Origin: Desulfobacterales bacterium
GTDB taxonomy: Bacteria; Desulfobacterota; Desulfobacteria; Desulfobacterales; Desulfosalsimonadaceae
Assembly (NCBI GenBank): GCA_007134875.1
Contig: SLJY01000040.1
Span: 1-64,000 of the forward strand
Direction of reading: 5' to 3'
Length of the DNA: 64,000 nucleotides
A program made the translations under genes and the position numbers. Of the stretch, positions 19,145 to 36,748 are shown in pieces; position 1 is the first letter of the stretch, and each line of letters starts with the position of its first letter. Below the pieces are notes generated by a model. That model worked only from the letters and a program-made list of their open reading frames with translations. It was not told the origin of the DNA and did no database searches.

Positions 19145-20701
19145 ATGTGGATGGAATCTTCCGAGCAGTGGACGATCGTTTTGATTGATGATGAAAAGGA
19201 TATCCGCGACGTTGTGCGGATTGCCCTTGAAGATGTAGGATATATTGTTCATACGGCGGCGGACGGCCGCGAGGGCCTTCAGCGGGTGCGCGAAACCCTG
19301 CCCGAGATCGTCATCACCGATATCCGGATGCCGGTGATGGACGGGCTTGCCGTACTTGATGCGGTAAAAAAGGAATTTTCCGAAACCGAAGTGATCATTA
19401 TCACCGCGTTTGCGGACATCGAGTTGGCCATCCGGGCACTGCAGCTCGATGCATCCGATTTCGTGACCAAGCCCCTCAACTACGACGCCCTGCATCTGGC
19501 GCTTTATCGCGCCATCCAGCGCTTTACCTCAAGAAAACAACTCAAGGATTACATGCAGCTTCTTGAGCGGGACAAGACGATTACCGCGCGCGAACTCGTC
19601 AGGAGCATCAACTTTCAGCGAAAGCTTATCGAAAGCTCCATGGATGCCATTGCGGCCTGCGACATCGAAGGACGAGTCATCCTGGCCAACCGGAGTATGG
19701 AACAACTCACAGGCGTCGAAAAGGACCGCCTGATTTCAGAAATATCCATTGATCGCCTGTTTCCCGAAGATGAGCGGGAAAGGATGGAAAAAGAACTCGA
19801 CAGCGACGCTTTCGGCGGCAGACACTGCCTCTCCCTTTTCGAGACCGTGCTTTTTGACGCGAAAAAGCGCCGGATCCCGGTGCAGGTCTCGGCCATCCGC
19901 CTGTTCGAGGACGACCGGCTCGAAGGACTGGTGCTGTTTATACGCGATTTGCGGGAGTTCTACCGGCTTGAACGGGCAATGGAGGACCAGGCAAGGATTC
20001 TGCAGCAGGACAAGATGATCTCTTTGGGGCGCCTTGCCGCGAGCGTGGTCCATGAAATCAACAACCCGCTGTCCGGTATCCTCAATTACGTCCGGCTCAT
20101 GAGGCGCGGCGTGGATAAAAAGCAGGTGGATCCGGAGCGACTGGAGAAGTTTTCCAGGTACCTGGAAATCGTGGACCGGGAAATAAGCCGCTGCTCCCAT
20201 ATCACCGGCAACCTCTTGGCGTATACCCGGAAATCGCCGCCTTCCTTTGAAACCGTGTCGATCAAGGACCTGCTCGAGCAGAGCATCCTGCTTTGCTCCC
20301 ACAAGCTGGAGCTTCAGAAAATCGTTCTGTCAACGGATATCCCCACCATTTTGCCGAAAATAAGCGGTGATTTCAACCAACTGCAGCAGTGTGTCTTAAA
20401 CCTTGTCTTCAATGCCATCGACGCCATGCCCGGAGGCGGGCACCTTTCTGTTTCAGCCGCCTATGATCCGGCGGAAAAAAGCCTTATTCTGGATGTGGGA
20501 GATACGGGTTCGGGGATCAAAGACAAGGAGCTTCCCCGAATTTTCGAGCCCTTTTATACCACCAAGCAGGAAGGCTACGGCGTGGGGCTGGGGCTCTCCA
20601 CGGTCAAAGAGATCATGCAGCGCCACGGGGGGGATGTCCGGGTAAAAAGCACGGGGTCGTCAGGCACCGTCTTCCGGTTGGAACTGCCTGTTTCCGATTA
20701 G
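19145..20701 (+). CDS. receiver-PAS-histidine kinase
   Basis: 518 aa; N-terminal receiver (LIDDEKDIRD, VITDIRMPVMDG, KPLN), PAS, VVHEINNPLSGILNY H-box, ATPase. Confidence 0.9.
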   Translation: MWMESSEQWTIVLIDDEKDIRDVVRIALEDVGYIVHTAADGREGLQRVRETLPEIVITDIRMPVMDGLAVLDAVKKEFSETEVIIITAFADIELAIRALQLDASDFVTKPLNYDALHLALYRAIQRFTSRKQLKDYMQLLERDKTITARELVRSINFQRKLIESSMDAIAACDIEGRVILANRSMEQLTGVEKDRLISEISIDRLFPEDERERMEKELDSDAFGGRHCLSLFETVLFDAKKRRIPVQVSAIRLFEDDRLEGLVLFIRDLREFYRLERAMEDQARILQQDKMISLGRLAASVVHEINNPLSGILNYVRLMRRGVDKKQVDPERLEKFSRYLEIVDREISRCSHITGNLLAYTRKSPPSFETVSIKDLLEQSILLCSHKLELQKIVLSTDIPTILPKISGDFNQLQQCVLNLVFNAIDAMPGGGHLSVSAAYDPAEKSLILDVGDTGSGIKDKELPRIFEPFYTTKQEGYGVGLGLSTVKEIMQRHGGDVRVKSTGSSGTVFRLELPVSD

Positions 20702-20702
20702 T

Positions 20703-22097
20703 TTATGCCTCCCCCGAATCCTGGCCTGCGGAGATGTTGTAGCGCTTGATCCGGTTCCATACCGTAACCCGGGAAACGCCCAGTATTTCGGCGGCCCGGG
20801 AGCGGTTGCCGCCGGTTTTGCGAAGGGCTTCGATCAGCTCCTGTTTTTTTTTCTCGTCCCGGTTCATGGCCCGCTGGCTTCCCGCTTTATGGACGGTATG
20901 ACCGTTTTTTCCGTGCAATACATCCGGTGGAAGGTGTTCGGGCTGGATCAGGGGTTGATCGCATGTGACAAAGGCATATTCGAAAGCGCTTTTGAGCTCC
21001 CGGACATTGCCCGGCCAATGGTAGTTGACGATTACCTCCATGGCCGCATTGGAAATGCCGCCGACCGATTTGTTGCTTTTGAGCCGGATGCGGTGGAAAA
21101 ACGCATCCGTCAAAAGGGATATGTCGCCGTTTCTGTCCCGAAGACGCGGAACCCGGATCGGAATCACGTTGATCCGGTAGAAAAGATCGTCCCGGAAGGT
21201 GCCCTCGTCCATGAGCTTCTGAAGGTCCCGGTTGGTTGCGGTGATGATCCGCACGTCTGTGTGAACGGGGCGGTTGTCTCCGACCCGCTCAATGGTCCGG
21301 TCTTCCAGGACGCGGAGCAGCTTGACCTGGGTCGACAGGGGGAGATCGCCGATTTCATCGAGAAAAATGGTGCCGTTGTTCGCCGCCTCGAAACGGCCGG
21401 TACGGTCCTGGTATGCCCCGGTAAACGCACCTTTCCGATGGCCGAACAGTTCGCTTTCCAGCAGCGAATCGTTTAGCGCTGCGCAGTTGACCTTTATGTA
21501 CGGATGCTCCTTACGGCGGCTGATGGTATGAATCGCCTGGGCGACCATTTCCTTTCCGGTGCCTGACTCCCCGAATATGATCACGGGCGCATCGGAGCGT
21601 GCCGCATTTTCAATCAAATCGTAGACCTGCTGCATGGGAAGCGAATTGCCAAGCAGTCCGTGAAATCCGTTTTCGGAGCATAACTCACTCCTTAACGCGC
21701 TGATCTGCGTTTCTTTTTCCGCCAGTTCCGTGATGTCCGTTATGGTTTCCACCGCCCCGATGATGTTCTCGTTTCCGTCCCGAAGAATCGATGCGTTTTT
21801 CAGAACCGGGATGAATTCGCCGTCGCTGGTCTGAATCACGGCCTCCCGCATATTGAGGAATCCGGTTTTAAAAAGATGGCACCAGTGCTCGCCTTCTTTT
21901 TCGAGAACAACTTCGCAGATGTTGCAATTTAAGAACGTGCAGGGCTTGCCGAGCAGCTCGTCCCGGTTATAGCCGGTAATATCGCTCATGGCCTGGTTGA
22001 CGGAGACGATCACGCCCTTTTTGTCGACGATCATCACACCGTCCTTGATAGTGTCCACCACGGTTTTCCAGTATTGGTTCAGGTCTTTTTCATGCAT
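20703..22097 (-). CDS. sigma-54-dependent Fis-family regulator with PAS sensor domain
   Basis: 464 aa; Cys-rich PAS (GKPCTFLNCNICEVVLEKEGEHWC), GESGTGKE, ELFGHRKGAFTGA, Fis-type HTH at C-terminus. Confidence 0.94.
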   Translation of the reverse strand: MHEKDLNQYWKTVVDTIKDGVMIVDKKGVIVSVNQAMSDITGYNRDELLGKPCTFLNCNICEVVLEKEGEHWCHLFKTGFLNMREAVIQTSDGEFIPVLKNASILRDGNENIIGAVETITDITELAEKETQISALRSELCSENGFHGLLGNSLPMQQVYDLIENAARSDAPVIIFGESGTGKEMVAQAIHTISRRKEHPYIKVNCAALNDSLLESELFGHRKGAFTGAYQDRTGRFEAANNGTIFLDEIGDLPLSTQVKLLRVLEDRTIERVGDNRPVHTDVRIITATNRDLQKLMDEGTFRDDLFYRINVIPIRVPRLRDRNGDISLLTDAFFHRIRLKSNKSVGGISNAAMEVIVNYHWPGNVRELKSAFEYAFVTCDQPLIQPEHLPPDVLHGKNGHTVHKAGSQRAMNRDEKKKQELIEALRKTGGNRSRAAEILGVSRVTVWNRIKRYNISAGQDSGEA

Positions 22098-22154: not shown

Positions 22155-22215
22155 ATCTTAACGAATAAATGCAACAAATAAGAATAATTCCTTATGAAAT
22201 CTGCGAATTATTTTT

Positions 22216-22231
22216 TGGCACCATTATTGCT
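22216..22231 (+). promoter_or_regulatory. sigma-54 -24/-12 promoter
   Basis: TGGCAC-CATTA-TTGCT matches the TGGCAC-N5-TTGCW consensus with correct spacing. Confidence 0.85.
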
Positions 22232-22333
22232 AGTGTAAAATGCAAAAGCGAAAGGCAATACTTTACTGTGCATAAGCATGCAGTGAAAGCAAGGTCGGTA
22301 AAACATGAATACAACCGTTCAGGAATTTTAGTT

Positions 22334-22579
22334 TTGAATCGTCAAGCGGATCATACACTCGATCTGAGGGGTTTTATCGTGCCAATCGCCCTGCTGAAAG
22401 TAAGCCAGGTGTTCCGTGAGATGCTGCCGGAGCAGACGCTGGAAATCCATTGTCACGACGAGGATATCAAGTGTGACCTGCTGAAGATTCTGCCGGCGTT
22501 TTCATATGAATTGGTTTTTGCCGAAGAAACAACCGACGGCAATTCCTTTCGACTGCAAATGAAAAAAAAGCATGGGTAA
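22334..22579 (+). CDS. TusA-family-like protein lacking the CPxP cysteine
   Basis: TTG start (uncertain); HTLDLRGFIVPIALLKVSQVFREMLPEQTLEIHCHDEDIKCDLLKILPAFSYEL matches the TusA fold pattern. Confidence 0.65.
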   Translation: MNRQADHTLDLRGFIVPIALLKVSQVFREMLPEQTLEIHCHDEDIKCDLLKILPAFSYELVFAEETTDGNSFRLQMKKKHG

Positions 22580-22589
22580 GGAAAGGCGA

Positions 22590-25500
22590 ATGAGCATACG
22601 AATCGGATGTTACGTCTGTCACTGCGGAATCAATATTGCCGGAAAGGTCCATGTGGACGAAGCCGCCGCATTCGCCGGTACGCTTCCGTCCGTGGTGATA
22701 TCCCGGGACTACAAGTTCATGTGTTCCGACCCGGGCCAGGAGATGATCGAAAAAGACATTCACGAATACGGTCTAAACCGCGTCGTGGTAGCGTCCTGCT
22801 CGCCCCGGCTGCACGAAAAGACGTTTCAGGGGGTCTGTCAGCGTTCGGGGATCAACCCGTATTATTTTCAGATGGCCTCCGTACGGGAACAGGTCTCCTG
22901 GGTGACGGCCGATGCGGATGATGCCACCCGGAAGGCCAAGACCCAGATCGCTGCTGCCGTCAACCGGGTCTGCTTTCATGAAAAACTGGCAACCCGTCAG
23001 GTTTCGGTCCATCCGGACATCATGGTGGTGGGTGCGGGCATAGCCGGCATGCAGGCGGCCATGGATATCGGGCGGGCGGGAAACAAGGTGTACCTGGTGG
23101 AAAAAGCCCCCACCATCGGCGGGCACATGCTCCAGTTCGACAAGACTTTTCCCACCCTGGACTGCGCCGCGTGTATCGGCACGCCGGTTATGGTGGAGGT
23201 CGGCCAGCAGCCGAACATCGATTTGATGACTTACTCCGAGGTATCCGATGTCACGGGATATATCGGCAACTACAATATCACGGTGCACAGAAAGCCCCGA
23301 TATGTTACCGAGGGCATATGCACTGGCTGCGGGGAATGCGAAAAGGTCTGCCCCATATCCCGCCCCAGCGAATGGGATGTGGGACTCAAAGAGCGCCGCG
23401 CTATTTACCGCTCCTTTCCCCAGGCGGTCCCCATCGCCTACGTGATCGACAAAAAGGGAACCGCGCCCTGCAAGGCAACGTGCCCCGCCCATGTATCGAT
23501 CCAGGGGTATATCGCCCTGACGAACCAGGGAAAATACCGGGAAGCCTTATCGCTGTTCCGCCAGGATCATCCGTTTCCGGCGGTGTGCGGGCGAGTATGC
23601 CACCATCCCTGCGAAGGGCAATGCACCCGCAACGACGTGGATGAGCCTTTGGCCATTCGCGAGCTTCACCGCTTTCTCTCCGACCTGGGCATGGCCGAAG
23701 GATGGGATGAACCCGAAGACGCGCCTTTGCCGGGCGAAGAAAAAGTGGCGATTATCGGCTCCGGCCCGGCCGGTCTTTCCGCGGCATATTTTTTGGCCCG
23801 CAGGGGATATGCCGTAACCGTATACGAGAAGCTTCCGGTTGCGGGGGGCATGATGGCCGTGGGCATTCCCGAATACCGTCTGCCAAGAGACATCCTCGCT
23901 CACGAGATTGCCCTGATCGAAAAGATGGGGGTCTCTATTGTGACCAATACGGCTTTCGGTACGGATATTACCCTGGAAAGCGTAAAAAGCGACGGGTTCA
24001 AGGCCGTTTTTATGGCTGTCGGCCTTCATGGGGGAAGAAAGCTTGGCGTCGAAAACGAGGACACCAGCGGGGTTCTTCAGGGCGTTGACTTCCTGCGGGA
24101 TGTTGCCATGGGGAACACCGTGGATATCGGAGAAGAGGTGCTCGTTATCGGTGGCGGAAACGTGGCCGTGGATGTGGCGCTTACCGCAAAGCGAAAGGGT
24201 GCCCGAAGCGTTACCATGATCTGCCTGGAAAAGCGCGGCGAAATGCCGGCCTGGGAGCACGAGATCCGGGATGCCGTGGAAGAGGGGATTCATATCGTCA
24301 ACAGCTTTGGTCCCAAATCCTTTTTCATCGACAACGCATCGGGGAAGGTATCCGGCATCGAGTTCAAGAGCTGCACGGCCGTTTTCGACGAAGCGGGCCG
24401 CTTCAATCCGTCTTTTGACGAATCCGCATGCCAGCCCTATTTCGCCGATACCGTCATCATCGCCATCGGGCAGGCGGCCGATCTTGATTTTGCGGACTCC
24501 CAGCAGGTGGCTGTATCGCCAAGAGGGGGGCTTGAGGCAGACCCTGTAACCCTCCAGACGCCGCTTGAATGGGTCTTTGCAGGCGGGGATGCCTTTTACG
24601 GGCCGAAATCGGTAGTGGATGCGGTGGCATGCGGTAAGGAGGCCGCCGAGAGCATATACCGCTACATTAACGGTATGGATCTTTACGAGGGCCGGCAAAA
24701 ACAGTGGGATTACGTAAAACCGGATATCCCCCCGGAAACCATCCCGGAGATCCGTCAGAAACGGGAACATACCGAATGCCTCGACCCGGCCGAACGTGTT
24801 GCCAACTTTTGCGAAGTCTACGCGGGTTTCAATGAGGAGCAGGCCCTGCGTGAAGCTTCCCGGTGCTTGGAATGCGGCGTCTGCTCCGAGTGTTACGAAT
24901 GCCTCAAGGCCTGCCAGCCAAACGCAATCAACCACGAGATGCAACCCGAGGACCTGGAGGTCAAGGTGGGCAGCGTGGTCATTGCCACCGGTTTCGATCT
25001 CATGGACCCGGAACCGCTCAAACAATACGGATACGGCAAATACGCCAACGTGTTTACGAGCCTTGAATTCGAGCGGCTCAACAATGCCACCGGGCCTACT
25101 GGCGGACAGATCCTTATGAAAAACGAACAGGGAGAGTTCGAGGGCAAGCCCAAAAGCGTGGCGCTCATCCACTGCGTGGGCAGCCGGGATGCCAACTACC
25201 ATGAATACTGCTCCCGTGTCTGCTGCATGTATGCGTTGAAATATTCCCACCTGATCAAGGAAAAAGTGGGTCATGATACGGAAGTCTATGATTTTTACAT
25301 CGACATGCGGTGTTTCGGCAAGGGCTACGAAGAATTCTATCGGCGCTGCCAGGAGGAAGGGACCCGTTTTATACGGGGCAAGGTGGCTGAAATTACCGAC
25401 AAGGCGAAGACCGACCAAGAAAAGGGCAAGCTCATCGCCATCGGCGAGGATACGCTTCTGGGTAAACGGGTCCGGGTGCCGGTCGACATGGTCGTGTTGT

Positions 25501-25997
25501 GCATGGCCATGGAAGCCCGCCCCGATGCCAACGAGATTTGCCGCCTGTTCGGGATAAGCCAGGGGAAAGACGGATTTTTCCTGGAGGAGCACCCCAAGCT
25601 GGGGCCGCTGTCCACCTCCACGGACGGGATTTTTCTGGCCGGGGCCTGCCAGTCCGCCAAGGATATTCCGGATACCACCGCGCAGGCGTCCGGGGCCGCG
25701 GCCAAGGCGCTTTCGCTAGCCCATCGGGGCGTCGTGGAGGTGCCGTCCGCGATTTCCTGGATCGATCCGGATATATGCGCGGGGTGCCAGGTTTGCATAG
25801 GCCTTTGCGCGTACGGCGCCATCGAGTTCGATCAGCGCCGCGGTATATCGGTTGTCAATGAAGCCCTGTGCAAGGGGTGCGGGAGTTGTTCCGGTTTTTG
25901 CCCGAGCAACGCCGCCCAGGTACGCCATTTCAAGCCGGGACAGTTGATGGCCGAACTGGAGGGGATTATCGATACGATTCACCAAGTGGGTCTTTGA
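22590..25997 (+). CDS. hdrA: HdrA-like FAD/Fe-S heterodisulfide reductase subunit A with GltD/NfnB-like insertion
   Basis: Start placed at MSIRIGCYVCHCG; GAGIAGMQAAMDIGRAGNKVYLVEK, ferredoxin motifs, inserted GltD-like block (CPAHVSIQGYIALTNQGKYREALSL...GSGPAGLSAAYFLARRGYAVTVYEKLPVAGGMMAVGIPEYRLP), then the HdrA C-half (CVGSRDANYHEYCSRVCCMYALK). Confidence 0.92.
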   Translation: MSIRIGCYVCHCGINIAGKVHVDEAAAFAGTLPSVVISRDYKFMCSDPGQEMIEKDIHEYGLNRVVVASCSPRLHEKTFQGVCQRSGINPYYFQMASVREQVSWVTADADDATRKAKTQIAAAVNRVCFHEKLATRQVSVHPDIMVVGAGIAGMQAAMDIGRAGNKVYLVEKAPTIGGHMLQFDKTFPTLDCAACIGTPVMVEVGQQPNIDLMTYSEVSDVTGYIGNYNITVHRKPRYVTEGICTGCGECEKVCPISRPSEWDVGLKERRAIYRSFPQAVPIAYVIDKKGTAPCKATCPAHVSIQGYIALTNQGKYREALSLFRQDHPFPAVCGRVCHHPCEGQCTRNDVDEPLAIRELHRFLSDLGMAEGWDEPEDAPLPGEEKVAIIGSGPAGLSAAYFLARRGYAVTVYEKLPVAGGMMAVGIPEYRLPRDILAHEIALIEKMGVSIVTNTAFGTDITLESVKSDGFKAVFMAVGLHGGRKLGVENEDTSGVLQGVDFLRDVAMGNTVDIGEEVLVIGGGNVAVDVALTAKRKGARSVTMICLEKRGEMPAWEHEIRDAVEEGIHIVNSFGPKSFFIDNASGKVSGIEFKSCTAVFDEAGRFNPSFDESACQPYFADTVIIAIGQAADLDFADSQQVAVSPRGGLEADPVTLQTPLEWVFAGGDAFYGPKSVVDAVACGKEAAESIYRYINGMDLYEGRQKQWDYVKPDIPPETIPEIRQKREHTECLDPAERVANFCEVYAGFNEEQALREASRCLECGVCSECYECLKACQPNAINHEMQPEDLEVKVGSVVIATGFDLMDPEPLKQYGYGKYANVFTSLEFERLNNATGPTGGQILMKNEQGEFEGKPKSVALIHCVGSRDANYHEYCSRVCCMYALKYSHLIKEKVGHDTEVYDFYIDMRCFGKGYEEFYRRCQEEGTRFIRGKVAEITDKAKTDQEKGKLIAIGEDTLLGKRVRVPVDMVVLCMAMEARPDANEICRLFGISQGKDGFFLEEHPKLGPLSTSTDGIFLAGACQSAKDIPDTTAQASGAAAKALSLAHRGVVEVPSAISWIDPDICAGCQVCIGLCAYGAIEFDQRRGISVVNEALCKGCGSCSGFCPSNAAQVRHFKPGQLMAELEGIIDTIHQVGL

Positions 25998-26186: not shown

Positions 26187-26609
26187 ATGGATGACTTCGA
26201 ACCGACCATCATCGCTTTTGTGTGCAACTGGTGCACCTATACGGCCGCCGATCTTGCGGGTACATCGCGGCTCACCTATCCAACCAACGTCCGGCTGATC
26301 CGGGTGATGTGCACGGGGATGGTTGACCCCAAGTATATTATCAAGGCCTTTCTGGAAGGCGCGGATGCTGTGCTGGTCTCCGGGTGTCACCCGGGCGACT
26401 GCCACTATATCAACGGAAATTATAAGGCGCGGCGCCGTATGAAGCTGCTCAAGGCCATTTTGCCGCGCTACGGGTTTTCCGAACAGCGGCTCAAGCTGAC
26501 ATGGATCGGGGCGTCCGACGGCATCCAGTTCGCACGCACCATACGGGAAATGGTGGAAGAAATCAAGGAACTCGGACCCAACGAGGCCCGAAATGCGGCG
26601 GTGGTCTGA
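26187..26609 (+). CDS. mvhD: MvhD-like hydrogenase iron-sulfur (delta) subunit
   Basis: 140 aa; FVCNWCTYTAADLAGTSRLTYPTNVRLIRVMCTGMVDPKYIIKAFLEGADAVLVSGCHPGDCHYINGN. Confidence 0.93.
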   Translation: MDDFEPTIIAFVCNWCTYTAADLAGTSRLTYPTNVRLIRVMCTGMVDPKYIIKAFLEGADAVLVSGCHPGDCHYINGNYKARRRMKLLKAILPRYGFSEQRLKLTWIGASDGIQFARTIREMVEEIKELGPNEARNAAVV

Positions 26610-26699: not shown

Positions 26700-27845
26700 A
26701 TGGCAAAAACCGCGCTATATGACATTGCGGATAAGAACCTGCAGGGGGCGCTTGCTTCCTTTCTTCAGTCGCTGCTTGCAGACGATAATATCAGCGCCGT
26801 CATGGTCCCCATGCGGCAGTCCGGAAACGATACCGTTATGCAGACCCTGGTGACCGATCCGGAGCAGCTATCCGCTGCGGACCCTTTTTCGCCGGCATTT
26901 CCCATGAATGCCGCCCGCCTGGTTTCGCGCCTTACGAAGCGCTCTCCCGGGGAAACCGTTGCGACGGTGCTGCGCCCCTGTGAAATCCGGGCTCATATCG
27001 AACTGGTTAAGCTGAAGCAGGGGCAGGTGGACGATATCATCATTATCGGCATCGACTGCCCCGGGACCCTTCAAAACAATGACTTCAGGAAATTAGCGGG
27101 CAAGGATCCGGAAAGCACAACGGATCGTTTCCTCACGGCTGCGCTGGACGGTAAAACGCAGTTCGACGAAGCGGTCGAGCTGCCTCCCGCCTGTAAAATC
27201 TGCACGCATCCGGTTCCGGAGGGCGCTGATATAGGGATCGGCATTTTCGGAATGGATATCAAAAAGCAGTTTCTGCTGAGTGCCGGGACGGAAAAGGGCG
27301 AAGGTTTACTGGACCGGCTGGGCCTCAATGTCCAGGAGCCGCCGGATGGACGAGAAGAGGCCGTTGGGTCGATTGTTTCGGCTCGCGAAGCCAGTCAGGG
27401 CGAGGTGTTCGCGGCGGTTCACGAAAAAACCGATACCCCGGAAAAACTGGCCGAATACCTTTCCGGCTGCATCAACTGCTACAACTGCCGGGTTGCCTGC
27501 CCGGTCTGTTACTGCCGGGAATGCGTATTCGTCACGGATGTTTTCGACCACGACCCGTTCCAGTACCTCCGGTGGGCCAAGCGGCGGGGAAAGATCCGCA
27601 TGCCGACGGATACGGTCTTTTACCACCTTACCCGGATGGCGCATATGACAACGGCCTGTGTCGGCTGCGGGCAGTGCTCCAATGCGTGCCCCAATGATAT
27701 CCCCCTGGCCGAGTTGTTCTCCATGACCGCGAGCCATACGCAGAACGCCTTCGACTACGAGGCGGGAAGGAGCCTGGAGGAAGATCCGCCCCTTGCAGTG
27801 TTCAGGGAGGATGAATTTGCCGAAGTGGTTGAGATCAAGCATTGA
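26700..27845 (+). CDS. FrhB/FdhB-like Fe-S protein (coenzyme F420 hydrogenase/dehydrogenase beta-subunit-like)
   Basis: 381 aa; LRPCEIRAHIELVKLKQ, GCINCYNCRVACPVCYCRECVF, CVGCGQCSNACPNDIPL. Confidence 0.82.
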   Translation: MAKTALYDIADKNLQGALASFLQSLLADDNISAVMVPMRQSGNDTVMQTLVTDPEQLSAADPFSPAFPMNAARLVSRLTKRSPGETVATVLRPCEIRAHIELVKLKQGQVDDIIIIGIDCPGTLQNNDFRKLAGKDPESTTDRFLTAALDGKTQFDEAVELPPACKICTHPVPEGADIGIGIFGMDIKKQFLLSAGTEKGEGLLDRLGLNVQEPPDGREEAVGSIVSAREASQGEVFAAVHEKTDTPEKLAEYLSGCINCYNCRVACPVCYCRECVFVTDVFDHDPFQYLRWAKRRGKIRMPTDTVFYHLTRMAHMTTACVGCGQCSNACPNDIPLAELFSMTASHTQNAFDYEAGRSLEEDPPLAVFREDEFAEVVEIKH

Positions 27846-27906: not shown

Positions 27907-30900
27907 ATGAAACCCAAGATCGGACGCGCCCTCGTGGTCGGAGGCGGCATCAGCGGCATCCGCGCCGCTCTGGACCTTGCCGAAACCGGATACCCGGTCA
28001 CGCTGGTGGACCGGGCGCCGCACCTGGGTGGCGTTTTGAGCCAGCTCGACAACCAGTTCCCGACCAATCACTGCGGCATGTGCAGGATGCTTCCCCTGGT
28101 GGATCGCGATGCCGGTGCCCAGTATTGTCTCAGGAAGGGGTTGTTCCACGAGAATATCGATATCCGTACATCCACACAGGTCGTGGGAATCGAGGGGGAA
28201 GCCGGCAACTTCACGGTTCGCCTGAAAAGACAGCCGGGGTTTGTCGATCCTGTCGCCTGCATCGGATGCGGGCGATGCGCGGACGCTTGTTCCGTTTCCG
28301 TGGCTGACGATTTCAATGCGGGCCTTTCCATGCGAAAGGCCATCTATCTGCCGGTTCCCCATATGCTTCCCAATACCTACGTTATTGATCCGGCTGCCTG
28401 CACGCGTTGCGGCGAATGCATAAATGTCTGCCCCACGGGCGCCATACGGCTGTACCGGGAAGGTCGGCAGGATTTCAGCGTTCTGGTGGTGGATGACGAG
28501 TATACCGTGCGCGATTCCATCAAGGAGTGGCTGGAGGAGGAGGGCTTTTCCGTCGAAACGGTCGGTTCCGGGGAGGAAGCCCTTGATCTGATCAAACAGC
28601 AGTCCTTCCGGATGATGCTGCTCGATATCAAGATGCCGGGTATTGACGGCGTGGAGGTTCTCAAGAAGGCCAAAGATCTTTTTCCGGATATGACCGTGGT
28701 GATGATGACCGCGTATGCAACCGTTGAAACAGCGGTTGAAGCCATGAAAACGGGTGCAATGGATTACCTCATGAAGCCTTTCGATCCGGAGGATCTTGCG
28801 GGCAAGGTCATCGGGGTCTACGAGGCGGAAGAAGCCGCCCGGGCCGAGGAGATCGAAGCCGGCGCAGTGGTTTTCTGCGGCGGATCCGAAGGCTATGATC
28901 CGTCAACCGGGAAGAACACCTTCGGCTATAAGGTGTTTTCCGACGTGGTGACCGGCCTGGAGTTCGAGCGTCTCATCAGCGGCACAGGCCCCGGCGGTGG
29001 CGGAGCGCTCCTGCGGCCGTCCAACGGCGAGCCGGTTAAAAAGATTGCGTGGATCCAGTGCGTCGGATCGAGGGACTTGCAGACAGACTCGGATTACTGC
29101 TCCGGTGTTTGCTGCATGTACGCCATCAAGGAGGCCATGCTCGCAAAGGAACACGGGCCCGAAGACCTCGAGTCGACCATTTTTTACATGGATATGCGAA
29201 CCGTTGGAAAGGCGTTCCAGCGTTTCCGGGATGCCGCGGAAACGGACCAGGGCGTCCGGTTTGTCCGGGGGCGGGTGCATACGGTCTACCAGGATACGCA
29301 TACCGGAAAGCTGGTTGTCTCCTATCCCGGCGAAAAAAGCCGGCGCATCGAAGAAGACTATGACATGGTCGTGCTTTCCACCGGCCAGAAGCCCTCATCC
29401 GGAACGGACAAGCTCGCCGAAGCCGCCGGCATCGAGCTAAACCCCTGGGGATTTGTCCGGGGTGAGCCGTTTCTGCCCGCAAAGACAAGCCGGGAAGGCA
29501 TTTTCTGCGGAGGGTCTTTTTCCGGCCCCAAAGACATTGCCGAATCGGTGATATCCGCATGTTCCGCATCCCTTCTGGCTTCTGCGACCATGCATTCGGC
29601 AGGCAAGGGCATCGCCGTTGCCGGGGATGACACGCCGGAATACATCGATGTCTCCCACCAGGCCCCCAAAGTCCGCGTCATTTTATGCGAGTGCGGGGGA
29701 AGCCTGCCCGAAGGGATCGATCTGAGGCGGCTTGCAGCCGGTCTGGAAGCGGACCCCTTCGTGGAAAGCGTTTCGTTTGTTTCCCGGATTTGTACGGAGG
29801 AAGGGTGGGAATCCCTGGCGGAAAAGGTAAAAACCAAGGGATATAACCGGCTGCTGGTAGGTGCATGCACGCCCTATGCCTATACCCGCAGGATTCGCGA
29901 ACTGGGCGGAGAAGTAATGCTCGATCCTTCCCTGATGGATGTCTGCGATATCCGGAGCCCCGAGTTTGCCTACGGCGAGGAAACCGGTGGCGATGCGATC
30001 GAAAAGGCAATGAGGCGCTCGCTTTCAACAGGCATATCCCGCCTGCGGTCGGTCGACCCGCTTCCGAAGCAGACTGTGCCGGTAACCCGCAGCGCCCTGG
30101 TTGTCGGGGGCGGCATTGCCGGTATGACAGCGGCGCTCGCCATTGCCGAACACGGATACGATGTTCACCTGGTGGAAGCATCCGAGCACCCCGGCGGAAA
30201 CCTGGGATGGCTGCATTCCACCGTTGAGGGAAATGATACGGCCATATTGCTCGAAGACACGACCCAGCGCATAGAAAAGCATCCCCTCGTGCACGTTCAT
30301 ACCAATACCACGGTGGTTAGCGCCTTCGGGGAGGTCGGGAATTTTTTCACGACCATTGAAACCGCGGATTCCGGCCCGCAGACCATACAGCACGGGGTGG
30401 TTCTCATCGCCACGGGTGGCCGGGAGGCGGAGACCCGATCCTACGGTTACGGCACGAGCGATGCCATCGTCACGCAGAAAGAGCTCGAAGAAAAGGTGGC
30501 CGCCAAAGCGATCGATTACAGCGCGATCGAATCGGTCTGTATGATCCAGTGCGTCGATTCCAGGGAGGAGCCAAGAAACTACTGCAGCCGTGTCTGCTGC
30601 CCATCGACGCTCAAACACATTCTTCAAATGAAACAGCAGAATCCCGATATTTCGGTCTATATCCTTTACAGGGACATGATGAGCCCCGGATTTGCGGAAA
30701 GCTGGTACACAGAGGCCAGGAAAGCCGGCGCCGTATTCATCCCCTATACGACGTATGCGAAACCCGTTGTTTCCCAAGGGGAAGAAGGCGGGTCAAAGGT
30801 CGTGATCAGCACCCGTGAACCGCTTTTGGACGCCGATGTACAGATCCATGCGGACCTGCTGGTCCTGGCAACCGGCATTGTGCCGAACCTGCCGGAAGAA

Positions 30901-31341
30901 CTGGCGGGGGCGTTCGGCGCGGAATGCGATGAAGACGGGTTTTTCAGGGAAGCCGAGTCCAAGTGGCGTCCCGTGGACAGCCTGAAGGAAGGGGTGTTCG
31001 GATGCGGCATTGCGTTGGGCCCCGGTTCGATCGAAGGCTCGGTTGCCACGGCCGGCGCCGCGGCCCAGCGGGCGCTTCGCATTTTGTCGAAAAACGCCAT
31101 TTCCCCGGCGGCGGTAACCGCCCGGGTGCGCCACAGCCTGTGCGTAACCTGTGAACGTTGTATCGCGGTCTGTCCTTATGGTGCGCGTTCGATCGATCCG
31201 GATACCAACAGGGTCCTGGTCAACGCGGTCATGTGCCAGGGTTGCGGGAACTGCGCGAGCGAATGCCCCAACAGTGCATCGGTCCTGGACGGATTTTTCG
31301 ACGGCCGCATGCTCGATATGATCGACATGGTCATGGAATAG
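27907..31341 (+). CDS. tandem double HdrA-like FAD/Fe-S oxidoreductase with embedded response-regulator receiver domain
   Basis: 1144 aa; first HdrA module interrupted after CTRCGECINVCPTGAI by SVLVVDDEYTVRDSIKEWLEEEGFSVETVGSGEEALDLI...MMLLDIKMPGIDGVEVL...VVMMTAYATVETAVEAM...YLMKPFDPEDL. HdrA then resumes (GAVVFCGGSEGYDP...CVGSRDLQTDSDYCSGVCCMYAIKEA), followed by a second HdrA module and C-terminal 2x[4Fe-4S]. Confidence 0.93.
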   Translation: MKPKIGRALVVGGGISGIRAALDLAETGYPVTLVDRAPHLGGVLSQLDNQFPTNHCGMCRMLPLVDRDAGAQYCLRKGLFHENIDIRTSTQVVGIEGEAGNFTVRLKRQPGFVDPVACIGCGRCADACSVSVADDFNAGLSMRKAIYLPVPHMLPNTYVIDPAACTRCGECINVCPTGAIRLYREGRQDFSVLVVDDEYTVRDSIKEWLEEEGFSVETVGSGEEALDLIKQQSFRMMLLDIKMPGIDGVEVLKKAKDLFPDMTVVMMTAYATVETAVEAMKTGAMDYLMKPFDPEDLAGKVIGVYEAEEAARAEEIEAGAVVFCGGSEGYDPSTGKNTFGYKVFSDVVTGLEFERLISGTGPGGGGALLRPSNGEPVKKIAWIQCVGSRDLQTDSDYCSGVCCMYAIKEAMLAKEHGPEDLESTIFYMDMRTVGKAFQRFRDAAETDQGVRFVRGRVHTVYQDTHTGKLVVSYPGEKSRRIEEDYDMVVLSTGQKPSSGTDKLAEAAGIELNPWGFVRGEPFLPAKTSREGIFCGGSFSGPKDIAESVISACSASLLASATMHSAGKGIAVAGDDTPEYIDVSHQAPKVRVILCECGGSLPEGIDLRRLAAGLEADPFVESVSFVSRICTEEGWESLAEKVKTKGYNRLLVGACTPYAYTRRIRELGGEVMLDPSLMDVCDIRSPEFAYGEETGGDAIEKAMRRSLSTGISRLRSVDPLPKQTVPVTRSALVVGGGIAGMTAALAIAEHGYDVHLVEASEHPGGNLGWLHSTVEGNDTAILLEDTTQRIEKHPLVHVHTNTTVVSAFGEVGNFFTTIETADSGPQTIQHGVVLIATGGREAETRSYGYGTSDAIVTQKELEEKVAAKAIDYSAIESVCMIQCVDSREEPRNYCSRVCCPSTLKHILQMKQQNPDISVYILYRDMMSPGFAESWYTEARKAGAVFIPYTTYAKPVVSQGEEGGSKVVISTREPLLDADVQIHADLLVLATGIVPNLPEELAGAFGAECDEDGFFREAESKWRPVDSLKEGVFGCGIALGPGSIEGSVATAGAAAQRALRILSKNAISPAAVTARVRHSLCVTCERCIAVCPYGARSIDPDTNRVLVNAVMCQGCGNCASECPNSASVLDGFFDGRMLDMIDMVME

Positions 31342-31437: not shown

Positions 31438-32010
31438 ATGGAACCTGCAGTAGACACCCAAACGGCAGCTCCGGACCGGTCGCTTATCAAAAAACTGGCT
31501 CCCGCGCGAAAACAACTCCTGGCATGCATTCAGTGCGGGACATGCAGCGGGTCGTGCCCCAATGCCGATGCCATGGACGTATCCCCGCGCTATCTGTGGC
31601 GCCTGCTGCTCACGGATAATGCGGAGGAAATATTCAAAACCCGGACATTTGCCCTGTGTTCGACCTGCTATACCTGCACCCTTCGCTGTCCGAGGGGCTT
31701 GCAGATCACCGACGCCATGAGCCTGCTCAAGCAGGTGGCGGCATCGGAAAACCTGCCTTTGTACAAGCGGAGCATCCGTTTTTACCAAAGCTTCATGGAA
31801 AGCGTTCGCCGGCACGGCCGGGTGCGGGAAATGGAATTTATGACCCTCTATTTCATGTCCATGAAAAATCCCGTCATCCCTTTGAAATTCACGCCTTTGG
31901 GGATGCGGCTCATGGCCAAGCGCAAGGTGTCCGTCGAGATTCCTTCCAAGGGTACGCAAAAACTGGATGCCATGTTCAGGAAAGCAAGGGAAATCGAGGA
32001 GCAATCATGA
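31438..32010 (+). CDS. hdrC: HdrC-like heterodisulfide reductase subunit C
   Basis: 190 aa; CIQCGTCSGSCPNADAMD and CSTCYTCTLRCPRGL motifs. Confidence 0.9.
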   Translation: MEPAVDTQTAAPDRSLIKKLAPARKQLLACIQCGTCSGSCPNADAMDVSPRYLWRLLLTDNAEEIFKTRTFALCSTCYTCTLRCPRGLQITDAMSLLKQVAASENLPLYKRSIRFYQSFMESVRRHGRVREMEFMTLYFMSMKNPVIPLKFTPLGMRLMAKRKVSVEIPSKGTQKLDAMFRKAREIEEQS

Positions 32011-32891
32011 CATACATATACTATCCCGGCTGCTCCCTGGAAGGGACCGCGGCCGAGTACAGCATCTCCACCATGGCGCTTTTCGAAACGCTGGGGATCG
32101 AGTTGATAGAACTTGACGACTGGACCTGCTGCGGCGCAACCGCCGCGGAGGGTGTCAGCCACCTGCTTTCCTTCGCGCTGCCGGCCCGGAACCTGGCCAT
32201 GGCCGAAAAAATGAAGGCCAAATCGGACATTCTCGTTCCGTGCAGCGCATGCTACCTGAATCTCAAGCGGGTGGAACAGGGAATCAAAGATGATCATTCA
32301 CTGCTCAGAAAGATCAACCAGGTTCTTGAGGCAGACGATCTTGTGCTCAAGGGGACCGTCAGAACCCGGCACCTCCTTGATGTCCTTGTAAACGATGTGG
32401 CGCTGGATGATATCGCCTCGAAAATCGTGCGCTCCCTGGAGGGTTTCAGTATCGCACCGTATTACGGATGCCAGTGCCTTCGCCCGTACGCCGTTTTTGA
32501 CGACCCGGAAGCGCCGCGCTCTATGGAATCGTTGATAACCGTCGCCGGCGCATCTGTGTATCCGTGGGACATGGGCGGGCGATGCTGCGGGGCATCGCTT
32601 ATGAGTACGGCGCCCGAAGCGGGCATCGAGTTGGTTGCAGCTCTGCTTGAAGGTGCGCAGGGTGCCGATGCCATCGTCACGGTATGCCCTATGTGCCAGA
32701 TGAATCTGGAGGCCTACCAGAAAAAGGCCTCCAAACAACACCATACACATTACGAGGTCCCGATTTTGTATCTGCCCCAACTGCTCGGTCTGGCAATGGG
32801 ATTAACCGACGACCAGATCCGACTGGATATGAACCTGTGTGTGCCCGGTTCGTTCCGGGAGAAACTGGCAAACACCCTTCAGCCCGCATGA
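32007..32891 (+). CDS. hdrB: HdrB-like heterodisulfide reductase subunit B
   Basis: Start at ATGA overlap with hdrC stop; YYPGCSLEG, WTCCGA...PCSACYLNL and YGCQCLRP...GRCCGAS...CPMCQMNL CCG domains. The tracker start 31656 is too far upstream. Confidence 0.92.
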   Translation: MTYIYYPGCSLEGTAAEYSISTMALFETLGIELIELDDWTCCGATAAEGVSHLLSFALPARNLAMAEKMKAKSDILVPCSACYLNLKRVEQGIKDDHSLLRKINQVLEADDLVLKGTVRTRHLLDVLVNDVALDDIASKIVRSLEGFSIAPYYGCQCLRPYAVFDDPEAPRSMESLITVAGASVYPWDMGGRCCGASLMSTAPEAGIELVAALLEGAQGADAIVTVCPMCQMNLEAYQKKASKQHHTHYEVPILYLPQLLGLAMGLTDDQIRLDMNLCVPGSFREKLANTLQPA

Positions 32892-32931: not shown

Positions 32932-34788
32932 ATGGAACATCGTTTTCAAAACAGCATTGTCGCGAAACTGACAATCCTTTTGTCCGGGGTGATTCTTGCC
33001 CTGGGGCTTGTGTTCGGGGTTATCGGGAATTTATTTCCGGGCCGTGAAGCGGCCGGTTTGTTGTTCATTGCAGCAGGGATTGCCGTTTTCGCCCTCTGCT
33101 TGTTTATTGTGCGATTTATTCTTATTCTATATATACGACAACCGCTGGCGCGCCTGGCCGAAACAGCCGCGCGGATTGCGGAGGAAAAGCCGCATGAAAA
33201 CATGACCGAGGCGGCAGGCGATGATGAGATCGGCCGGCTTGCCCGCGCCGTGGCAAAAACCGCCGACACCATTGAATACAAGCGTCACGAGATTGCCCAG
33301 GAGCACAGCGAATACCAGAATCTGTTTGAAACCGTTCCGTGCCTGATCACCGTGCAGGACAAAAATCTCCGGCTTATCCGGTACAACCGGGAATTTGCGC
33401 AGAAATTCGATCCCCGCAAGGGGGATTACTGTTATTCCGTATACAAGGGGCGAGACGAGAAGTGTGAAAACTGCCCCGTGGAAAAAACTTTCCGGGACGG
33501 CATGTCCCACACGTTCGAGGAGGCGGGCTACAACCGCGACGGAAAGCCGATGCGCTGGGTGGCCCGTACCGCACCGATCCGGGATGAAAACGGAGCGGTG
33601 GTGGCGGCAATGGAGATGAGCCTGGACGTGACCATCAAGCGGGAACTCGAGGAGAAGCTGGAGGCTTCCCAGCGTCGCTACCAGGCGATCTTTTCCAATA
33701 TTCCGAACCCGGTTTTCGTACTCGATCCGGAAACCATGGAAATCCAGGACTGCAACGACTCCGTGGAGCCGGTGTACGGATATGCCCGGGATGATGTTCT
33801 TGGCAAGTCTTTCTGGATGTTTTTCGAGTCGGGGGACCGGAAGGAATATGAAGCCAGAATTCAAAGCGGCGCTTTTTTGCACCAGATCCGCCAGAAGGAT
33901 AAAAACGGAAATCCCCTGTTCGTGGACATCCGTTCCTCCCGAACCGCATATCCCGAATGGGAGGTGCTGCTGGTGACCACATCGGACATCACCCAGCAGC
34001 TTGAAACGGAGCAGCAGCTTATCCAGGCTTCCAAGATGACCACCCTGGGCGAAATGGCAACCGGCATCGCCCACGAACTCAATCAGCCGCTTTCCGTGAT
34101 GAAAACGGCCAGCTCATTCATGCTGCAGAAATTTGAATCCGGCGGGGAGGTGAAAAAAGACATTCTGGCGAACATGCTCGGCAAGATCGACGCCAACGTA
34201 GACCGGGCAACCAATATCATCAGCCACATGCGGCAGTTTGCCAGAAAATCGGAGCTGGACCTGGAAAGCGTGGATGTCAACCACGTAATGGCGCTGGCAT
34301 CGGAAATCTTTTCGGAGCAGATGAAGGTCCGCGGGATCCGGGTGGATTGGAACCTGGCCGATAACCTTCCGCTGATCCGGGCCAATTCGAGCCGGTTGGA
34401 GCAGGTTTTCGTCAATGTCCTGATCAATGCGCGGGATGCCATCGAGGAGCGATGGGGTGATGTCCGAGTGAACCCGGAGGACAAGGCCATATCGATAACG
34501 ACGAGTGCCTCAAGCGATGAGGCCTTCGTGGAGATCTGCGACACCGGCAACGGCATCGACGAATCGATCATAGACAAAATATTCGAGCCGTTTTTTACCA
34601 CCAAGTCGGTGGGGAGCGGAACAGGCCTTGGATTGTCAATCAGCTACGGAATCGTCCGGGAATGCGGCGGGACAATCCAGGCGTTCAACAGGCAGTCCGG
34701 GGGAGCATGCTTTACCATGCGGTTTCCCGTTCATGAAAACCAGCAACAGGAGAATGCCAATGGCAAAGAAAGTCATGGTGGTGGATGA
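32932..34788 (+). CDS. membrane PAS-PAS histidine kinase
   Basis: Two TM segments, HAMP-like region, PAS with CYSVYKGRDEKCENCPVEKTF, second PAS, GIAHELNQPLSVMKTA H-box, ATPase. Confidence 0.9.
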   Translation: MEHRFQNSIVAKLTILLSGVILALGLVFGVIGNLFPGREAAGLLFIAAGIAVFALCLFIVRFILILYIRQPLARLAETAARIAEEKPHENMTEAAGDDEIGRLARAVAKTADTIEYKRHEIAQEHSEYQNLFETVPCLITVQDKNLRLIRYNREFAQKFDPRKGDYCYSVYKGRDEKCENCPVEKTFRDGMSHTFEEAGYNRDGKPMRWVARTAPIRDENGAVVAAMEMSLDVTIKRELEEKLEASQRRYQAIFSNIPNPVFVLDPETMEIQDCNDSVEPVYGYARDDVLGKSFWMFFESGDRKEYEARIQSGAFLHQIRQKDKNGNPLFVDIRSSRTAYPEWEVLLVTTSDITQQLETEQQLIQASKMTTLGEMATGIAHELNQPLSVMKTASSFMLQKFESGGEVKKDILANMLGKIDANVDRATNIISHMRQFARKSELDLESVDVNHVMALASEIFSEQMKVRGIRVDWNLADNLPLIRANSSRLEQVFVNVLINARDAIEERWGDVRVNPEDKAISITTSASSDEAFVEICDTGNGIDESIIDKIFEPFFTTKSVGSGTGLGLSISYGIVRECGGTIQAFNRQSGGACFTMRFPVHENQQQENANGKESHGGG

Positions 34789-35113
34789 CGATCCCAATAT
34801 CGTTCGCTACATTACGACCGTACTAGAGGATGCGGGCTATGAAACATGCAGCGCGAGCGACGGGGGAGAGGCGTTTGAGGTGCTCAAAGAGAACAAGCCG
34901 GACCTGATTACCCTGGATCTCGACATGCCGGAAGAGTGGGGGCCCCGGTTTTACCGCAGGTATTCGAAGCAGCCCGAGTACAGGGATATTCCGGTTGTCG
35001 TGGTAAGCGGCCTGTCGGGCATTACCCATGCCATCAAAAGTGCGGTGGCCGTTGTCCAGAAACCGTTCGAGCCGGACGAGCTTCTGGATATCGTCAAAAA
35101 GACCATCGGCTGA
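34760..35113 (+). CDS. single-domain response regulator
   Basis: MAKKVMVVDDDPNIVRYI...LITLDLDMPEEWGP...VVVVSG...VQKPFEPDELL; AGGAGA RBS; overlaps kinase 3' end. Confidence 0.9.
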   Translation: MAKKVMVVDDDPNIVRYITTVLEDAGYETCSASDGGEAFEVLKENKPDLITLDLDMPEEWGPRFYRRYSKQPEYRDIPVVVVSGLSGITHAIKSAVAVVQKPFEPDELLDIVKKTIG

Positions 35114-35188: not shown

Positions 35189-36748
35189 ATGGAAATTCCG
35201 GCTTTCAATACCGTGCTGCTCGTGGATGACGAAGAGGACGTCCGTGAGGTGATGGGCATATCCCTGGAAGATCTGGGATACGAGGTGATCTATGCATCCG
35301 ACGGGGATGAGGCGATCGAGCGCTTCCGGGAGCACACCCCGCCCATTGTCCTGACCGATATCAAGATGCCGGGCATGGACGGGATCGAACTTCTGGAAAA
35401 GATCAAGCGGATCGATCCCGAAACCGAGGTAATCATGATCACCGGGCACGGGGATATGAATTTCGCGGTGAGAAGCTTTCGCTTCGACGCCACGGACTTC
35501 ATCACCAAGCCCATTGGAGTGGAAGACCTGGAAAGAGCCCTGAAGCGGGCCCGGGAAAAGATCACGGTCAGAAAGCAGTTCTACGATTACACCCAAAATC
35601 TGGAGGCGATGCTCTCGCAAAAAAGCGGCGCTCAGCCGATGGGTGATGCCAAGACCAAAGGACTGATAGAGGCCGGCGGCCGGTTGCCGGCCGGGTCGGG
35701 AACGCTTCAGGAAGTGCTCGAACATCTGCCCTGCTATATCGCCGTCTATGATCCGGACCTGCGCATCGTGGAGGCCAATTCCTACTTTGAGGAAAACTTC
35801 GGCGACCGGCGCGGTGAGCACTGCTACCGGGTCTGCATGGACCGGGAGGAGCCGTGTCCGGAGTGTCCCGTTAAAAAAACCTTTTCCCGGGGTAAATCCT
35901 GTCAGCACGAAACTGAGTATATCACAAGGGACCACCGGACACGAAAGGTCCTGGTCTGGACCCTTCCGGTATTCGACGCGTCCGGAAAAACCGTGGAGCA
36001 GGTCATGTCGGTGGCCACCGACCTGGAGCAGATAAGCGAACTCCAGGACAGGCTTTCCTCGCTGGGCCTGATGGTCGGCTCCCTTTCCCACGGCATCAAG
36101 GGGCTTCTTACCGGAATCGACTCCGGCATGTACCTGATCAACTCCGGGCTGGCAAAGGAAAACGGTGAGCGCACCCGGGAAGGGGTCCAGATCGTCCAGG
36201 AGACCACCGAGCGGCTCAAGCGCGTGGTTCTTGATATTCTGTTTTACGCCAAGGAGCGGGATTTTACCAAGGAAAAGATCGCAGTCCGCTCATTTGTTGA
36301 TGAAATGAGCCGGGTGGTGGACTCCAAGATCCAGTCCTACGGCGTTTCCTTTGTGACGCACTGCGAAGAGGATCCGGGTGAATTCACGATCGATGCAACC
36401 TGCATGCTGCAGGCCGTGATGAACATCTTCGAAAATGCTATCAACGCGTGCGCGGAGGACCCGGACAAAACCAAATCCCACGCCATAACCCTTACAGTGC
36501 GGCCTGAAGATAAGCAGGTTTGCTTCGATATCGCGGATACCGGCAAGGGGATGGACGAAGACACCCGAAACGCCATGTTCAACCTGTTTTTTTCCACCCG
36601 CGGGAGCAAGGGGACCGGGCTGGGGCTGTTCGTCACCCGGCAGATCATCGAGGATCACGGCGGGAGCATCGGGGTGGAGTCCGAGCCCGGCAAGGGGACC
36701 GTCGTTACGGTCTGCATTCCCCGGGACTATCAGATGCCGGGAACCTGA
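35189..36748 (+). CDS. receiver-PAS-histidine kinase
   Basis: VLLVDDEEDVREVM...VLTDIKMPGMDG; PAS with CYRVCMDREEPCPECPVKKTF; SLSHGIKGLLTGIDSGMYLI H-box; C-terminal ATPase GTGLGLFVTRQI. Confidence 0.9.
   Translation: MEIPAFNTVLLVDDEEDVREVMGISLEDLGYEVIYASDGDEAIERFREHTPPIVLTDIKMPGMDGIELLEKIKRIDPETEVIMITGHGDMNFAVRSFRFDATDFITKPIGVEDLERALKRAREKITVRKQFYDYTQNLEAMLSQKSGAQPMGDAKTKGLIEAGGRLPAGSGTLQEVLEHLPCYIAVYDPDLRIVEANSYFEENFGDRRGEHCYRVCMDREEPCPECPVKKTFSRGKSCQHETEYITRDHRTRKVLVWTLPVFDASGKTVEQVMSVATDLEQISELQDRLSSLGLMVGSLSHGIKGLLTGIDSGMYLINSGLAKENGERTREGVQIVQETTERLKRVVLDILFYAKERDFTKEKIAVRSFVDEMSRVVDSKIQSYGVSFVTHCEEDPGEFTIDATCMLQAVMNIFENAINACAEDPDKTKSHAITLTVRPEDKQVCFDIADTGKGMDEDTRNAMFNLFFSTRGSKGTGLGLFVTRQIIEDHGGSIGVESEPGKGTVVTVCIPRDYQMPGT

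Follow-up and report, generated by a model that had tools for sequence, protein, structure and literature searches.

The usual outputs of receiver domains are DNA binding, second messengers and motility, and in response regulators with an enzymatic output, such as the CheB, GGDEF, HD-GYP and PP2C types, the receiver is N-terminal. This also holds for the REC-fused basic amino acid decarboxylases (PMC8503589), in which a receiver is covalently joined to an enzyme. Modules that sit at, or adjoin, the inserted ferredoxin domain of HdrA have been described in ANME-1 HdrA 9-11 (PMC9012536) and in HdrL-type proteins, where the module is an NfnB-like NAD(P)H flavoprotein. In methanogen Hdr, this inserted ferredoxin domain is thought to be the electron exit toward ferredoxin (PMC9012536), and the movement of an arm appears to gate electron transfer (PMC12350162). 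The 64,000-nucleotide stretch of Desulfobacterales DNA analysed here (the window) encodes an HdrA-type flavoprotein, REC-HdrA, in which the module at this place is instead a signalling domain. The arrangement differs from the decarboxylases and from other enzymatic response regulators in that the receiver (REC) is internal, its pocket is intact, and the enzyme is an Fe-S flavoprotein of energy metabolism. In the literature searched, which covered few subscription papers, we found no HdrA described as holding a receiver whose chemistry is intact. One gene of this kind was very likely named in 2009: the gene order at our locus from Desulfobacterium autotrophicum HRM2 (L190, genome G188), where the receiver is intact, fits that of hdrA4 locus VIII (PMC2702500), and the main text of that report places hdrA4 next to hdrB/hdrC and makes no mention of a receiver in it.

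An earlier note, made from the DNA letters, had proposed a complete receiver between the ferredoxin module and the FAD half of an HdrA subunit, and domain search, structural alignment and structure prediction all bear this out. Response_reg was matched by Pfam at residues 192-300 (E=4.4e-32), with Fer4 and FAD/NAD-binding families on either side. In a phmmer search against the PDB, residues 6-183 aligned to 144-311 of HdrA in 5ODC and residues 314-513 to 317-514, so that REC interrupts HdrA cleanly between residues ~311 and ~317; tandem HdrA homologues without the fusion have just four residues at this position. The remainder of the protein is a second HdrA copy, residues 586-1134 aligning to the N-terminal HdrA domain (~586-720) and the C-terminal ferredoxin domain (~1071-1125), with a second FAD domain (~728-1060) also present, an arrangement comparable to the tandem copies of fused HdrA (PMC9012536). 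The insert has a slightly lower GC content (0.546) than the rest of the gene (about 0.60), while its GC3 matches.

An AlphaFold2 model of REC-HdrA (mean pLDDT 80.3, pTM 0.78), whose best structural matches are HdrA chains, shows the CheY-like order of strands and helices in residues 191-311, with a short β5. The last receiver helix, α5 (294-311), reaches a strand of the FAD domain (314-318) via two residues; the orientation of REC is not readable from this model, as the output came without inter-domain error. HdrA-family features are present, namely an FAD domain with inserted and C-terminal ferredoxin domains, encoded together with HdrB and HdrC. The NfnB/GltD-like insertion that marks HdrL is absent from REC-HdrA, its place being taken by REC; another locus, L090, has an NAD(P)H-oxidoreductase insertion comparable to the NfnB-like one. 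None of the Pfam families shown for REC-HdrA is an HTH or sigma-54 output domain. In the FAD first half, C56 and C59 of an FPTNHCGMC motif are invariant among the 68 homologues aligned, and so, in a 20-sequence alignment, are the cluster cysteines C118/C121/C124/C128, C165/C168/C171/C175, C398/C402/C403 and C1110-C1120. The FAD domain, both ferredoxin domains, the N-terminal domain and the HdrB, HdrC and MvhD partners are shared with HdrA of HdrABC-MvhAGD (5ODC, M. thermolithotrophicus) and of Elp-Hdr (8RVY), whereas the tandem HdrA, the receiver after the ferredoxin domain and the NAD(P)H-type HdrL plus FrhB that replace hydrogenase set REC-HdrA apart. Flavin-based electron bifurcation by REC-HdrA is predicted solely from this homology.

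Table 1 Features of the rec-hdrA locus in the window. Conservation counts refer to 68 aligned REC-HdrA fusions.
Feature	Position	Strand	Evidence or remark
HdrL-type HdrA/NAD(P)H-oxidoreductase (Fer4_20, Pyr_redox_2)	22572..25997	+	Pfam; 56/68 gene-called neighbourhoods
MvhD (FlpD, PF02662)	26187..26609	+	Pfam family; position conserved
FrhB/FdhB-like Fe-S flavoprotein subunit	26700..27845	+	Pfam; 56/68 neighbourhoods
REC-HdrA, tandem HdrA-type flavoprotein with embedded receiver	27907..31341	+	1144 aa, ATG, frame intact
FAD (thioredoxin-reductase-like) domain, first half, HdrA copy 1	27907..28236	+	Pfam, homologue alignment, 5ODC alignment
Inserted two-cluster ferredoxin domain	28237..28464	+	Fer4 matches; 5ODC alignment
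REC, residues 190-304, in place of 4-residue linker	28474..28818	+	Pfam, boundaries, predicted fold
Acidic pair D196/D197	28492..28497	+	D196 (28492-28494) 67/68; D197 (28495-28497) 64/68
Predicted phospho-acceptor D240	28624..28626	+	kept in 68/68
Switch residue T268	28708..28710	+	kept in 65/68
K290	28774..28776	+	kept in 66/68
FAD domain, second half, HdrA copy 1	28846..29601	+	Pfam; 5ODC alignment
HdrA copy 2	29662..31281	+	Pfam; 5ODC alignment
HdrC (4Fe-4S)	31438..32010	+	Pfam; conserved neighbourhood
HdrB, two CCG domains	32007..32891	+	4-base overlap of its start with the hdrC stop
HK1, membrane HAMP-PAS-PAS-HisKA-HATPase kinase	32932..34788	+	CxxCP motif in PAS
Single-domain receiver protein	34733..35113	+	start uncertain, 34733-34760
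HK2, REC-PAS-HATPase hybrid	35189..36748	+	Pfam

The window lies in a fragmented assembly of 231 contigs, where contamination, or an assembly error or frameshift of the kind the earlier note had itself raised, could have produced such a gene. The survey of the Desulfobacterota that the note called for settles the matter. Of 390 genomes sampled from the same class, 157 gave a match to a query spanning ferredoxin domain, REC and FAD domain, all in one domain order, a few of these matches being short and maybe partial genes. Sampling across the phylum contributed eight more, from other classes of Desulfobacterota, and a scan of species genomes matched Desulfonema magnum 4be13 and Desulfoferrobacter suflitae. 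The same architecture thus recurs in independent genomes, among them the closed chromosomes of Desulfonema magnum and Desulfobacterium autotrophicum. The complete sequences number more than 60, each in a single open frame and all with the insert at the same site, which rules the artefact out, and we regard its probability as practically nil. In a single genome (G370, locus L204), the REC-HdrA gene is split by an in-frame TGA or a frameshift. On an HdrA tree built with the REC columns removed, a branch with support of 100 sets all fusions apart, and several independent fusions are therefore unsupported; the tree comes from a quick search, in which the sampled non-fusion proteins all lie across that single branch.

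The positions assigned beforehand to D196, D197, D240, T268 and K290 and to their codons proved exact, and a receiver without an Asp pocket, which would have undermined the proposal, is not what the homologues show, each of these residues being kept in 64-68 of the 68. Outside the pocket, R202, S204 and Y287 are invariant in the 64 non-degenerate fusions and W208 is found in 60 of them; R202, S204 and W208 are α1 docking residues. Pairwise dN/dS was computed by domain, and the ratios are rough because some dS values are saturated. For most intact pairs, REC had the lowest ω of any domain or came close to it, with values such as 0.031, 0.046, 0.050 and 0.054. For one intact pair, an ω of 0.031 in REC compares with 0.084-0.146 in neighbouring domains; another intact pair, L162/L182, has a higher value, 0.23.

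The gene order HdrL, MvhD, FrhB, REC-HdrA, HdrC, HdrB, followed by kinases, is conserved. Both kinases to which the earlier note had pointed are real, with the domain compositions given in Table 1, and the hydrophobic N-terminal stretches and HAMP domain of HK1 indicate that it is probably membrane bound. A kinase is encoded within 8.5 kb of the gene start in 56 of the 63 REC-HdrA loci that have at least 5 kb downstream, on the same strand in 48, and near 9 of 33 non-fusion HdrA loci, counts that express association only, since the loci share ancestry and the controls are unmatched by taxon or HdrA type. The first kinase has the H-box HE[LIVF]x[QNT]P in 53 of 53 cases and the CxxCP motif in 41 of 53. 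In four genomes with an intact REC and no adjacent kinase (HRM2, D. magnum, G277 and G521), a nearly full-length HK1 match, 42-56% identical, is encoded elsewhere. Across the sample, uncorrected for shared ancestry, HK1 orthologues occur in 141 of the 157 genomes with REC-HdrA versus 77 of 233 others. HK1 is likely the kinase for the embedded receiver; its presence in those 77 genomes and near other genes means that it has other partners as well.

Several other features of the neighbourhood deserve mention. A cysteine motif, CY followed by CxxCP, is present in the PAS domains of both HK1 and HK2 and may serve in redox chemistry or metal binding. Directly before hdrL lies a TusA-like gene (22169-22579), a place at which many relatives have a single-domain receiver, and upstream of the operon the window encodes a further REC-PAS-HisKA-HATPase hybrid kinase (19145-20701) and, on the minus strand, a PAS-type sigma-54 activator (20703-22097). 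In four related loci, a Usp-REC-Usp protein is encoded directly downstream of hdrB (L152:12662-13999; L153:12686-14008; L154:10827-12149; L183:12872-14203, minus strand), and its receiver is 60-66% identical to the REC of the window HdrA, which suggests that a single kinase set may address several outputs.

These additional receivers also bear on a reading in which the flow of information is reversed, with REC-HdrA serving as a reporter or phosphate sink for the redox state or flux of Hdr. The state of Hdr would alter uptake or loss of phosphate by the receiver and thereby set the phosphorylation of the other receivers of the operon. Consistent with this, several receivers lie nearby in the window (the single-domain protein and that of the hybrid HK2), related loci supply the Usp-REC-Usp proteins and in some cases NtrC-type regulators, and both window kinases have the Cys-rich PAS motif. 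However, no DNA-binding receiver protein was found from ~9 kb upstream to 13 kb downstream in the window, and a sink would not need a conserved mechanical link to the flavin domain; we consider this reading unlikely.

A few lineages provide counter-cases in which the receiver has decayed. In the three genomes of family f110 (L210, L211 and L212), D240 is kept while the pocket is broken by loss of the acidic pair, of T268 (T268A) and, in two cases, of K290 (K290H). REC ω in these broken-pocket pairs rises to 0.43 and 0.56. Partial erosion of the pocket is also seen in L149 (genome G020), with a REC ω of 0.22 against its sister L151, compared with 0.064 between the intact sisters L150 and L151. 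Purifying selection on REC thus appears, from these ratios, to relax where the pocket erodes. The three broken-receiver proteins are nested among the fusions on the HdrA tree. Of the four genomes in which the receiver has decayed or is decaying, G020, G657 and G766 yielded no comparable match to HK1; the fourth, G429, has a broken REC, yet retains HK1-like kinases elsewhere in its genome. Such lineages constitute natural controls. The possibility, foreseen in the earlier note, that homologues would reveal a degenerate, unphosphorylatable insert accordingly fails in general and holds only within this one nested lineage, with partial decay in one further genome; for the window it is rejected. 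The persistence of the f110 domain with a broken pocket does imply that the fold can stay without its chemistry, as would be expected had REC been captured as a rigid connector that is unphosphorylated in most species. Elsewhere, though, the pocket is nearly invariant, ω is lowest at REC and kinases are associated with the gene, making a mere structural spacer very improbable.

With the domain, its site, the intact pocket, the strong constraint and the kinase association established by sequence and structure comparison, we conclude that REC is, as far as sequence can tell, a working, phosphorylatable control module of the Hdr complex. REC-HdrA would then be a response regulator that has an Hdr-type redox complex as its output, is driven by a kinase and tunes electron flow, a reading we hold to be probable. 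For the broader claim, that an Hdr-type and presumably bifurcating flavoprotein is a direct target of two-component phosphorylation, such that a membrane sensor tunes the flow of low-potential electrons and bypasses transcription, we see the chances as evenly balanced. In such a mechanism, HK1, probably together with the hybrid HK2 and the single-domain receiver, would phosphorylate D240; both phosphorylation by HK1/HK2 and its effect on electron flow are inferred. The inserted ferredoxin domain, the putative low-potential electron exit, is connected to the FAD domain through the receiver. A change in α4-β5-α5 could pass via the long α5 helix (294-311) into the FAD strand at 314, altering the position, docking or electron transfer of the ferredoxin domain. 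The HdrL-MvhD-FrhB-HdrA-HdrC-HdrB complex might in this way be turned up or down quickly, without transcription.

Hinged as it is between ferredoxin and FAD domains, the receiver occupies a favourable position for controlling how electrons leave or how ferredoxin docks, and phosphorylation may gate either step. The original suggestion that electron flow or assembly is gated by the phosphorylated receiver is plausible. Its second half corresponds to a further reading, in which phosphorylation makes REC dimerise or dock to the membrane kinase, so that assembly, stoichiometry or position is controlled rather than turnover of a fixed complex. The NtrC-like α4-β5 region is strongly conserved, HK1 is probably membrane bound, and methanogen Hdr works as a dimer (PMC9012536, PMC12350162), all of which would fit. 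The tandem HdrA may, however, itself supply the dimer partner, as proposed for fused HdrA (PMC9012536), and we judge control of assembly or localisation to be distinctly unlikely.

If tuning of electron flow by REC phosphorylation is borne out, a large group of marine sulfate reducers would have a direct link from environmental sensing to energy conservation. Our comparison suggests that electron flow may be under the direct control of a sensing system, without gene expression as the intermediate step. How anaerobes regulate electron bifurcation post-translationally, an open question, thereby becomes accessible to experiment through an identified residue, D240, and identified kinases.

Some non-fusion HdrA operons likewise encode single-domain receivers or histidine kinases as separate proteins (L082, L094, L098, L109, L110, L124, L134, L137 and L143), and many of the HdrA proteins concerned are HdrL-like, with 1400-1500 aa, hinting at receiver-Hdr links in trans. 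HdrA selenoproteins are known, and other HdrA genes of the source genome have an in-frame TGA (L005:1501-2028; contigs C18 and C120 of G000). The TGA in C18 falls at FPTNDCAM[U], the position of C59 in the window protein, and therefore probably encodes selenocysteine.
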